A DNA stretch of 23,203 nucleotides from a virus, in IMG/VR virus record IMGVR_UViG_3300017917_000984, positions 1-23,203 of that record; one strand, given 5' to 3'. Below the pieces are notes generated by a model. It did not search any database. It saw nothing but the letters and a program-made list of their open reading frames with translations, and was not told the DNA's origin. Numbering within the stretch: position 1 is the stretch's first letter; each line of letters opens with the position of its first letter. Below are positions 8,521 to 11,932 of this stretch, piece by piece. Position numbers and translations under genes: made by a program.

Positions 8521-9855
8521 ATGGCTGTAAGTAAGAGAACTGGCAAAAAGTCTTTAGCGGCAAATGACTTCCTTATTCCTTTGCCACCAGGACCGCCAAC
8601 CGCATCTGATGTTGGAACAAATAGGCCATATGATAATGGATCTGCTGTTGTAGAATTTAGTGCTGTAGATTTAGCTGTTTCTTATAAGGTTTATGCAAAT
8701 GCAACTGGGCAAAGCACTGTGACTGCAACTGGAACCTCCTCTCCAATAATTATTACGGGACTTAAGTCAAATGTTTTATACACCTTTACTGTTACTGGAT
8801 TTAATGATCAGGGTGTAGAAGGTGACCCAAGCGATCCATCTATTGCAACATTAATAACAACTGTTCCAGCCACTCCAGCTGCACCAACAGCAACTTCTCC
8901 AAATGCTGATCAAGATAATGTTTCCTGGACAGCACCAAATAATGGTGGAAAAACTATTTCTGGATATATTTGGACATGCTCTGATGGCAAAACAAACCTT
9001 GCTGGAGGAACTCCAGGAGGTGGACCAACAACTAGCACTTCTATCACTGTATCTCAAGAAGCTGGTACTGCTCAGACATATACTGTGTATGCCATTAATC
9101 CAAATGGAAATTCCGCAACCTCTCCAGCCTCTGCTAGCGTAACCACAACATTTTCTTTTGCACCATTTGGAGCTTTTGGATTTTCACCATTTGGATTTTC
9201 GCCATTTGGATTCTCTCCATTTGGATTCTCACCATTTAGTGCCTTTGGATTCTCTCCATTTGGATTTTCACCGTTTAAAGCTTTTGGATTCTCTCCATTT
9301 GGATTTTCACCGTTTAAGGCTTTTGGGTTTTCTCCTTTTGTATGCATTGCGTCTGATACAAAAATTGCAACAATATCGGAAAGTGGCAAGGTCTTATGGG
9401 TAAAAGCAAAAGACATTGTTGTTGGTGATAAAGTATTTACTCCTAATTGGGACGAATTTCTTGGCGACGATATTGAAAGCCCATATGATTCTATTATTGA
9501 ATATCAAAGTCTTACTAACATGAGAATAGAATCTGGTGAGGTTGTTGCAATAAAGAAAAAGGTTGTTGAAGAAACTGTAGTGTTTAATAACAATATTGAA
9601 AAGAGGTTTTCTTTAACACAGCCAGTCTTAGTGATGAGAGCTGGGCAAGATTTACACTCATGGGTTTTTGCTGGTGACGTTATTGATGGTGATATTGTTT
9701 GGGAATATGATTTTGATACTCAAACCTTTAATAAAACTATTATAGAAAACGTGTCTTTTATTTCTGAAGATGAATATGTCTATGCCTTTGACGTAGAGGA
9801 AATAGATACCTTTATTGCTGGTAATGTTATATGTCACAATAGACTTAAGGTTTAG
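8521..9855 (+). CDS. FN3 - GFSPF repeat - Hint domain surface protein
   Basis: A 444-residue fusion. Two fibronectin type III domains (about 21-112 and 113-210, both with the usual Trp/Tyr core and 'YTFTVTGFN' or 'YTVYAINPNG' strands) are followed by a low-complexity region built on GFSPF (about 214-273). A Hint domain (about 275-440) completes it. The Hint domain has the N-terminal nucleophile Cys275 in 'VCIASDTKI' and ends 'AFDVEEIDTFIAGNVICHN' (His439-Asn440) followed only by RLKV. At the place where Hint block B normally has T-x-x-H, the sequence reads S-L-T-Q (Ser364, Gln367). Hint domains catalyse self-cleavage or splicing. With no Cys/Ser/Thr after Asn440, splicing is not expected; cleavage at Cys275 or at Asn440 remains possible. 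FN3 domains are common on phage tail surfaces, so this is probably an exposed adsorption protein. Confidence 0.75.
   Translation: MAVSKRTGKKSLAANDFLIPLPPGPPTASDVGTNRPYDNGSAVVEFSAVDLAVSYKVYANATGQSTVTATGTSSPIIITGLKSNVLYTFTVTGFNDQGVEGDPSDPSIATLITTVPATPAAPTATSPNADQDNVSWTAPNNGGKTISGYIWTCSDGKTNLAGGTPGGGPTTSTSITVSQEAGTAQTYTVYAINPNGNSATSPASASVTTTFSFAPFGAFGFSPFGFSPFGFSPFGFSPFSAFGFSPFGFSPFKAFGFSPFGFSPFKAFGFSPFVCIASDTKIATISESGKVLWVKAKDIVVGDKVFTPNWDEFLGDDIESPYDSIIEYQSLTNMRIESGEVVAIKKKVVEETVVFNNNIEKRFSLTQPVLVMRAGQDLHSWVFAGDVIDGDIVWEYDFDTQTFNKTIIENVSFISEDEYVYAFDVEEIDTFIAGNVICHNRLKV
9160..9339 (+). repeat. Coding tandem repeat, 15-bp (GFSPF) unit
   Basis: About 180 bases encode back-to-back GFSPF pentapeptides, with interspersed GAF, SAF and KAF spacers. 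Two adjacent 39-bp units (9247-9285 and 9286-9324) differ at only one base, marking a recent duplication or replication slippage. The repeat joins the FN3 domains to the Hint domain. Confidence 0.9.
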
Positions 9856-9902: not shown

Positions 9903-10562
9903 ATGATAACTGATCAACTACCACAAAGCGTAAGCCAATCACCACAACCACACAAATTTTTTGAAAGATATCTAGATAATGATTTGAATAGTCTCTCTAA
10001 AGAGTTAAGGATTAGATATGATAGGATTCAAAAAGCAGAAATACTTGGCGTAACTCCACTAACAGATTATGAGTCTTGGGCAGAATCAAATAGCGTCTCT
10101 ACAATGAAGTGGAGACAATACAATGTTTTTCAATTTCACATTCCAGAAATCTATAATTTATATATTGCTGTTAAAGAAATGGCACAAGAGGCTTGTGAAT
10201 ATTATGGCCTAGATTTTGCAAAACAGAGATATATGATGCAGGGATGGTTTAATATTAATAGCACAAGTAAGGGTGGAAAGTTAGATTGGCATGATCACGG
10301 ACCAACTGGTGCACCACTGTTTCATGGCTATTATTGTGTAAATGCCGAACCATCAATTACAAATTATGTTGTTTTTAATCAATCAGTCGAAAATATAAAC
10401 AAAAACAATCGGGCAATCCTCTCTGAAATGGGACATCCCCATGCAATGGGTGACTGGGAATGGGATGGAGATAGGATTACTATTGCCTATGACCTTATTC
10501 CATTAGATCAAGTTGTTAATTTTGGAATGGAAAATGAGCAGCATTGGATACCTATAAATTGA
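9903..10562 (+). CDS. 2OG-Fe(II) oxygenase-like protein, paralogue 1
   Basis: A 219-residue protein of the putative 2-oxoglutarate/Fe(II) oxygenase type common in aquatic phages. The candidate iron-binding motif is His130-Asp131-His132 in 'LDWHDHGPTGAP', followed by the strand 'HGYYCVNAEPSI'. The distal histidine is His178 or His180 in 'MGHPHAMGDW', and Arg191 in 'DRITIAYD' is the likely 2-oxoglutarate carboxylate anchor. Such enzymes hydroxylate protein side chains, nucleobases or small molecules; the substrate here is unknown. The next gene is a clear paralogue (shared 'KFFERYLDN', 'EACEYYG', 'FHGYYCVNAEPSIT', 'GHPH' and 'RITIAYD'). The start ATG is preceded by a purine-rich ribosome site and its own promoter. 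The reading frames overlap by 19 bases. Confidence 0.75.
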   Translation: MITDQLPQSVSQSPQPHKFFERYLDNDLNSLSKELRIRYDRIQKAEILGVTPLTDYESWAESNSVSTMKWRQYNVFQFHIPEIYNLYIAVKEMAQEACEYYGLDFAKQRYMMQGWFNINSTSKGGKLDWHDHGPTGAPLFHGYYCVNAEPSITNYVVFNQSVENINKNNRAILSEMGHPHAMGDWEWDGDRITIAYDLIPLDQVVNFGMENEQHWIPIN

Positions 10563-11197
10563 AAACCCCAAAGCCGCCACAAAAATTTTTTGAAAGATAT
10601 TTAGATAACAATCTAGATGAATTATTTAATTATCTACAAGAAAAGCAACAGGACATTTTGGCTGGAAAAATAGCTGGTATCCCATTAGACAAAATTAAAG
10701 ATTACGACATATACAATGGACCGTCTACTCAGCTTGGAACATATTATAATATTTTTGATTTTGATAATGAAGCAATTCAGAAGCTAAAGAATGCACTAAA
10801 ATCTGCAACCCAGGAAGCCTGTGAGTACTATGGCATTGATTTTGAGTCAAAAAATTATCATATTCATGGTTGGTTTAACTTAGACTATCAATCTCCAGAA
10901 AACAAAGAAGAAGGAGTGTCACCATTAAAACATTCTGAGCATTATCATGATCACATGGGCGGAGAGGGCGCACCCACCTTTCATGGGTATTACTGCGTAA
11001 ATGCTGAACCATCTATTACATACTATAAGATAGATAGAATTGTTGATTTTGAAAATATTAATAAAAATAATCGAGCAGTTATATCTGAAACTGGACATCC
11101 TCATGGAAGAGATGATTGGTATTCGGAAAAGCCAAGAATAACTATTGCATATGATATATCTCCAGTTGGGTTTGGGTCATTATGGCAAAAGTTATAA
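10544..11197 (+). CDS. 2OG-Fe(II) oxygenase-like protein, paralogue 2
   Basis: A 217-residue tandem paralogue of the preceding protein. The candidate metal site is His135-Asp136-His137 in 'HYHDHMGGEGAP', with a distal His185 or His187 in 'GHPHGRDDW' and an Arg in 'PRITIAYD'. Relative to paralogue 1 it carries an insertion of about a dozen residues before the HDH motif ('SPENKEEGVSPLKHSEH'). The start is uncertain: TTG at 10544 gives the longest product, and a second in-frame TTG at 10559 overlaps the upstream stop as TTGA and would remove only five residues. Neither has a strong Shine-Dalgarno sequence, so translation probably depends on coupling to the upstream gene. The tandem arrangement points to duplication followed by divergence, possibly for two related substrates or a heterodimer. 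Confidence 0.75.
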   Translation: MDTYKLKTPKPPQKFFERYLDNNLDELFNYLQEKQQDILAGKIAGIPLDKIKDYDIYNGPSTQLGTYYNIFDFDNEAIQKLKNALKSATQEACEYYGIDFESKNYHIHGWFNLDYQSPENKEEGVSPLKHSEHYHDHMGGEGAPTFHGYYCVNAEPSITYYKIDRIVDFENINKNNRAVISETGHPHGRDDWYSEKPRITIAYDISPVGFGSLWQKL

Positions 11198-11331
11198 ATA
11201 AGCTCAGGTGTGTTATTTTTGGGCATCAAATTTTAACACAATCTTGTCCAGTAACTGGAAGCAGGCTAGAATCTTGCACAAGATGTGGCTTAGGAAATCT
11301 TCCACATAATAAAGAAATGAGGTTCATTTAA
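11182..11331 (+). CDS. 49-residue zinc-ribbon-like protein
   Basis: A short open frame that overlaps the end of the preceding gene by 16 bases and ends one base before the next ATG, filling exactly the space between the two oxygenase-like genes. The protein has Cys10-x4-His15 ('RCVIFGHQ') and Cys32-x2-Cys35 ('SCTRCG'), with an additional Cys22. The 'RCxxFGH ... CxRCG' arrangement is typical of very small zinc-binding proteins found in many actinobacterial phages and their hosts. It would bind one zinc ion; the function of these proteins is unknown. Coding status is supported by the motif, the tight packing and the reading-frame fit. The Shine-Dalgarno sequence is poor (GGG at 11175-11177), consistent with translational coupling. 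Confidence 0.75.
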   Translation: MAKVINKLRCVIFGHQILTQSCPVTGSRLESCTRCGLGNLPHNKEMRFI

Positions 11332-11332
11332 T

Positions 11333-11932
11333 ATGATTCATATTATTAAAAATTTTATATCAAAAGAAGATGTATCGATAATTAAAGAATATATTGAAAC
11401 AATTAAGTTTAACACTAAAGAAGATCATGTTCCTTTGCACGATAATTTGTTTGAAGTAAATGGCGTTGTTTTTGATTTACATACTCGTGGAGAAATGCCA
11501 AATCATATACTTAGTATATTTTCTAAATATTCTGAAGGATTTTATAAGGCAGTTCAGGAGATTGAAAGCATAAATTATCATCCACCAATGTTCTCTAAAC
11601 ATTATATAGCAAGATATAGAACTGGAGTCTCTGTTGGACCACACTTTGACCCAGATAAACCAGAAGGAACCTATAAGTCTTATATTTACTGGAATGATGA
11701 TTTTTCTGGCGGAGCACTAAATTTCCCAGAACTTAAAGAAACGTTTACGCCACAACCAGGAGACCTTGTTTTCTTTATTGAAAATGAAGAAAATCGTTAT
11801 GAGGTTACAAGAGTTGAGTCTGGCATTCTGTATATGTCAGAAGCCTGGATGGGCAAGGTTGGCAAGGCCTGGATGCCAAATGTTAACTATGAAGAAACTA
11901 ATTGGGATGATTGGGAAATAAAGGGCTTTTAG
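11333..11932 (+). CDS. Prolyl-4-hydroxylase-fold protein with degenerate active site
   Basis: A 199-residue protein of the prolyl 4-hydroxylase / 2OG-Fe(II) oxygenase superfamily. The double-stranded beta-helix is recognisable: His104-x-Asp106 in 'GPHFDPD', 'YIYWNDDFSGGALNFPE' and 'FTPQPGDLVFF'. In active members the next part reads roughly H-x-V-x-x-V-x-x-G-x-R. Here it reads 'NRYEVTRVESGILYMSEAW', so the distal iron ligand His is Tyr156 and the 2-oxoglutarate anchor Arg/Lys is Leu166. Two of four key residues are thus replaced, suggesting a non-catalytic or altered-cofactor protein. It closes the oxygenase operon, one base after the zinc-ribbon gene. GAGG (11319-11322) lies ten bases before the ATG. 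A scaffold, decoy or substrate-binding role is possible. Confidence 0.75.
   Translation: MIHIIKNFISKEDVSIIKEYIETIKFNTKEDHVPLHDNLFEVNGVVFDLHTRGEMPNHILSIFSKYSEGFYKAVQEIESINYHPPMFSKHYIARYRTGVSVGPHFDPDKPEGTYKSYIYWNDDFSGGALNFPELKETFTPQPGDLVFFIENEENRYEVTRVESGILYMSEAWMGKVGKAWMPNVNYEETNWDDWEIKGF

Follow-up and report, generated by a model that had tools for sequence, protein, structure and literature searches.

An intein-like Hint domain with glutamine at the block B position at the C-terminus of a probable phage fibre protein

The window analysed here, a virus record of 23,203 bases, encodes on the + strand at 8521–9855 a protein of 444 residues with the layout FN3-FN3-(GFSPF)n-Hint. Its C-terminal Hint domain is of a known kind, related to inteins and Hedgehog; what is new is a variant in phage fibres with a swapped block B histidine. 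In the reading that we favour, and regard as reasonably probable, the fibre protein carries at its C-terminus an active autoprocessing cassette of intein-like (BIL-like) type, which probably severs itself from the fibre or else transfers the fibre to another molecule. Three things argue for activity: Cys1, His and Asn are conserved, the identity of residue 1 goes with that of the last residue, and selection is purifying.

Domain layout, genomic setting and active-site residues

Other genes of the window have matches to portal, prohead protease and major capsid proteins, and those upstream of 8521–9855 match PHROGs families of virion structural, head decoration and minor tail proteins, so that a virion role for the FN3-GFSPF-Hint protein is likely. 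As in the original prediction, the N-terminal part is formed by FN3 domains (residues ~21–207, 8581–9141 +, borders approximate), which Pfam recognises in two stretches (PF00041, E 7e-10). They are followed by a Phe/Pro-rich repeat at residues 209–273 (9145–9339 +), likewise predicted, which has DNA repeat periods of 15 and 39 and nine exact GFSPF units within residues 220–273.

Three genes lie directly after the Hint gene (9903–11932). The first two are without a Pfam match and resemble each other by eye, and a homologue of one of them is found at most 4 kb away in 53/53 FN3-GFSPF loci with enough downstream sequence; the third (11333–11932) has a 2OG-Fe(II) oxygenase match slightly below the cutoff. 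Our guess would be that the Pro-rich repeat is hydroxylated. A sulfotransferase-like gene, recognised by eye, comes after the Hint gene in several Gln-type phages (L009, L004 and L026), for example at L009:6405–7130, between the Hint gene and OxyA, and a ribonucleotide reductase-like gene, also by eye, stands amid oxygenase-like and structural genes at L016:8462–10492 and L033:7580–9613.

The Hint domain itself (residues 275–440, 9343–9840 +) is supported by Pfam, profile alignment, AlphaFold2, Foldseek and VIA. Pfam Intein_splicing matches residues 277–440 with an E of 1e-6, the score, 29 bits over the full protein and 32.5 when the domain is searched by itself, being below the curated cutoff of 35.8. 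The AlphaFold2 model, built from an input alignment of 22 sequences, has a pLDDT of 89 and a pTM of 0.85; Foldseek (E 1e-7) places BIL2 of Tetrahymena BUBL1 (6tmm, 6y75) at the top, with inteins and Hedgehog lower. VIA gives a Z of 18.1 to the Mtu RecA mini-intein (1.9 Å over 137 residues), 17.8 to BIL2, and 16.9 each to Hedgehog (1at0) and the C. thermocellum BIL (2lwy). The modelled fold of residues 275–440 is thus clearly that of a Hint domain, and the original prediction of such a domain at the C-terminus of a probable virion protein holds.

Two of its catalytic sites are as expected, and as originally reported: Cys275 (9343–9345 +) is residue 1, the nucleophile of the N-terminal junction, with Cys or Ser in 115/115 relatives and Cys in 36/36 of its class, and His439-Asn440 (9835–9840 +) forms the C-terminal junction, each residue being kept in 35/36 of the Cys1 class. 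Block B, on the other hand, is Ser364-Leu-Thr-Gln367 (9610–9621 +) instead of Thr-x-x-His. Aligning the family profile with the Pho RadA intein (4e2u) puts Gln367 on the H and Ser364 on the T of block B T-P-S-H-P; the placement of Gln367, first made by eye, is thereby confirmed, the threonine is altered likewise, and, since Gln367 occupies the histidine's place, no other histidine fills the block B position. At the block F His position of inteins stands Asp429 (9805–9807 +), almost invariant in the family (111/115).

Conservation, block B variation and exchange among relatives

Searches of IMG/VR returned numerous loci, of which a considerable share come from phages with this gene order; INPHARED held no relatives of the full-length protein. 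Among 115 non-identical Hint domains, Thr280 is invariant, 54 domains have Cys at residue 1 and 61 have Ser, and the last residue is Asp in 60, Asn in 51 and another in 4, with Cys1 paired to Asn in 50/54 and Ser1 to Asp in 60/61. Related phages have a second class at the same locus, with Ser1, terminal Asp and, in every member, block B His. Over all 115 domains block B has His in 84, Gln in 23 and Glu in 8. Thinned at 80% identity, the Cys1 class comprises 36 domains with a median identity of 34%, in which Cys1, the penultimate His and the terminal Asn are among the best-conserved sites and block B is divided between His (17), Gln (14) and Glu (5).

A tree of 81 domains requires nine type changes overall and at least four for the Cys-Gln-Asn label, which indicates that His, Gln and Glu have been interchanged at block B several times, close relatives included: L166 and L167 (His, CAC) are 88% identical over the domain to L159 (Gln, CAA). 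Pairwise dN/dS in the Cys1 class is at most 0.17 with a median of 0.11, Gln–Gln pairs being about equal to His–His pairs (about 0.1), and the Ser1 class has a median of 0.08 (in neither class are the pairs independent). By this measure purifying selection acts on Gln types no less strongly than on His types, and nothing suggests decay. Gln367 is therefore a poor sign of a dead copy, as which it might be taken: Gln and Glu recur in relatives that are strongly selected and keep Cys1 and the HN end. No compensating residue for Gln367 was identified in the family, and a bulky −1 residue, considered as compensation for loss of the histidine, is not the rule there, Gly being common. The HN end is lost in a few members (L059, L061, L062, L126). 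Degenerate Hint copies, without Cys1 at L127:2196–2723 and without the HN end at L126:1903–2379, occur in genomes that hold a second Hint protein.

The original prediction had passed over the tail that follows Asn440, as it had the Ser1/Asp class, the Hint-less orthologues and the cultured jumbo phages described below. In the window, Arg441-Leu-Lys443-Val444 (9841–9852 +) is the entire C-extein; in the Cys1 class (n=36) the tail has 1–7 residues, with Lys at +1 in 16, +2 in 15 and +3 in 2, that is 33/36 (relatives not independent), where the Lys content of the domain would lead one to expect 3.7/36. The three remaining tails belong to two members that have lost HN (L059 and L126) and to L122, which has Lys at +5. 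There are two main registers, with +1 found in several separate lineages (the HNK clade, L001, and L172/L174) and +3 in the window. Cys, Ser or Thr at +1 is found in 0/36 of this class. Of the 32 tails in the Ser1 class, 2 contain Lys and 16 have Ser or Thr at +1.

The Hint domain behaves as an exchangeable cassette. In related phages (L028–L032, L037–L040, L043, L046–L050) the FN3-GFSPF gene stops at the repeat, without Hint; on the tree of the next gene Hint is gained or lost no fewer than four times, and Cys1 and Ser1 types are found among neighbours there (L004 beside L013 and L035), and the same Hint also stands behind PASTA domains and Thr/Pro-rich linkers. Where the FN3 protein bears a Hint, the genome in most cases encodes a second Hint protein; wherever the gene order could be followed, this lies upstream of the lysozyme gene, which in this record would be just past the left edge. 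The tendency to two Hint proteins (13 both, 6 neither, 2 mixed; Fisher p 5e-4, records not independent) is not an all-or-none pairing, which was rejected on account of the mixed genomes G048 and G017 and of many Ser1-class genomes with one copy. A Hint match past the stop in L032 was discarded, the DNA having a 2OG-like gene that starts there and no Hint. At L045:2960–3087 the repeat lacks two bases, so that the Hint is out of frame, a single case that is either real or an assembly error.

Comparison with known Hint systems

The domain has the mark of the Hint superfamily, a Hint fold with a residue 1 nucleophile (Cys275) after an upstream part. Class 3 inteins have no Cys1 nucleophile and carry a WCT motif, and the presence of Cys275 sets the domain apart from them. 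Hedgehog has a similar fold (Z 16.9) and a C-terminal Hint acting on the part that precedes it; the Hog domain, however, is without the terminal Asn and has a sterol-recognition region, whereas the phage domain has an HN end and is followed by no such region, the protein stopping four residues after Asn440. Nor does a toxin domain of the Pretoxin HINT kind (PF07591, weak matches) come after it, as nothing follows.

With class 1 inteins it shares the fold, Cys1 and HN. It differs from them in block B (S-L-T-Q), in lacking an endonuclease and in not lying inside a conserved enzyme, nor is it inserted in a host protein that needs both exteins: the C-extein has four residues and orthologues end at the repeat. 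Since +1 is Arg441 rather than a nucleophile, canonical class 1 splicing is out, as originally predicted. The wider statement that the domain should not splice was too strong. According to a review (PMC4031507), no intein residue is better conserved than the block B His, and it knew of two inteins that lack it, one of them dead. Tko CDC21-1 splices without this histidine, by means of Lys58, and is the one known case of activity after its loss (PMC4031507).

The domain bears the sequence marks of an A-type BIL, namely Cys1, the HN end and no conserved +1 nucleophile, and likeness to a known member, the C. thermocellum BIL (2lwy, Z 16.9), is by fold only. Surface-type proteins are common to both; the phage family differs in that many of its members have Gln or Glu at block B, and in its extreme C-terminal place, its Lys tail of 1–7 residues and its occurrence in phage fibres. 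BIL2 of BUBL1, the top Foldseek match, has a Lys as reported acceptor (PMC8616854), but comes from a eukaryotic, polyubiquitin-like setting, retains His at block B (H69), and has its acceptor Lys in a folded downstream domain.

A design of the same kind exists in cultured jumbo phages. In Alexandravirus AD1, Erwinia phages such as Y3 and Yoloswag, Yersinia phage fHe-Yen9-02 and phage NCTB, a tail protein that is collagen-like, and hence also fibre-like, terminates in a Hint that has Cys1 and HN and is followed by a few residues including Lys (e.g. TDIVAKAEKK). Block B His is kept, unlike in the window, in the members read (THEHP; TEQHP in NCTB), the tail has 7–10 residues with Thr, Val or Ala at +1, and identity is only ~19–36% to those Hint domains of the phage family that found them. 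The records of Y3 and NCTB already annotate an intein domain. In phage NCTB three genes at L256:2960–8465 are annotated as intein domain proteins, one of just 153 aa that ends in HNKVD. In the literature we found no report of FN3 or GFSPF phage Hint proteins, nor any biochemical or virion proteomic study of a member of the family.

Proposed mechanism and alternatives

Setting out from the fold, residue identities, conservation, selection and cassette exchange described above, we infer an activity, an order of steps, an acceptor and a virion location for the Hint protein as follows. Cys275 would attack the Val274–Cys275 bond, so that the FN3-(GFSPF)n part is held as a thioester, with Gln367 substituting for the block B His. 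An amine or water would resolve the thioester; the best candidate amine is the tail lysine, Lys443, whose attack would give an isopeptide as in Tetrahymena BIL2. Cyclisation of Asn440 would release the Hint domain, and the mature fibre would end at or near the GFSPF repeat, like the orthologues without Hint. Self-cleavage or attachment through the Cys275 thioester, both named in the original prediction, are the likeliest uses of the domain. A missing block B His does not speak against activity: Tko CDC21-1 is active without it, and bulky −1 residues rescue a His mutant of Ssp DnaB (PMC6333167), a pattern that the phage family does not follow. The review also cites splicing by BIL domains that have no nucleophile at +1 (PMC4031507), BIL domains mostly cleave (PMC7664689), and for BIL2 both an isopeptide with Lys and conjugation of the upstream domain to other proteins have been reported (PMC8616854).

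How the thioester would be resolved is where the readings part. Tentatively, we suggest that the Cys1 thioester ligates the fibre, without a block B His, to the amine of the conserved Lys just after Asn; the acceptor would lie in cis or on a neighbouring subunit, the result would be splicing or cross-linking by an isopeptide, and the Ser1/Asp sister chemistry would be exchangeable at the same gene. Two observations weigh on this, as on Lys443 in our preferred reading: the Ser1/Asp class at the same locus nearly always does without Lys, so that Lys is dispensable for whatever both classes share, and a tail can be a single Lys, which leaves little obvious product from attaching it. What the two classes may have in common is the acyl shift at residue 1, the only nucleophile shared by them, and this speaks for plain self-cleavage, in which the (thio)ester is hydrolysed, the Hint domain is a temporary C-terminal cap or chaperone shed on maturation, and the Lys tail only aids folding or Asn cyclisation. 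Other tail fibres have autocleaved C-terminal chaperones, and the Hint is found at the same place in different fibres and is missing in orthologues. We hold this to be possible, if somewhat unlikely, as it leaves unexplained both a Lys within three residues of Asn in nearly every member and the retention of HN, since cleavage at residue 1 would suffice.

That the domain is catalytically dead, retained for structure or binding, is improbable. The absence of the block B His in the window and the loss of HN in a few members would fit, yet few sites are as well conserved as Cys1, His and Asn, selection is equally strong in Gln and His types, and the linkage of Cys with Asn and of Ser with Asp is hard to explain other than by catalysis. 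Quite doubtful, too, is conjugation in trans, in which the fibre would be transferred from the thioester to an amine of a different virion protein or of the host surface. Hedgehog passes its N-part to cholesterol, and the PASTA fold, found in some of the upstream domains, is known for cell wall binding. In structure both Hedgehog and BIL2 come close to the domain, conjugation to foreign proteins is on record for BIL2 (PMC8616854), and two Hint proteins often occur in one genome; against this, the sequences point to no acceptor and orthologues manage without Hint.

The family is a repeated natural trial of His, Gln and Glu at block B with Cys1 and Asn kept, together with a Ser1/Asp sister class at the same locus. 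With these natural variants one can test directly what the block B His does and what decides whether such a domain cleaves, splices or ligates. If active, the domain would give phages an ATP-free route to finish or cross-link their fibres, and may possibly yield new ligation tools.
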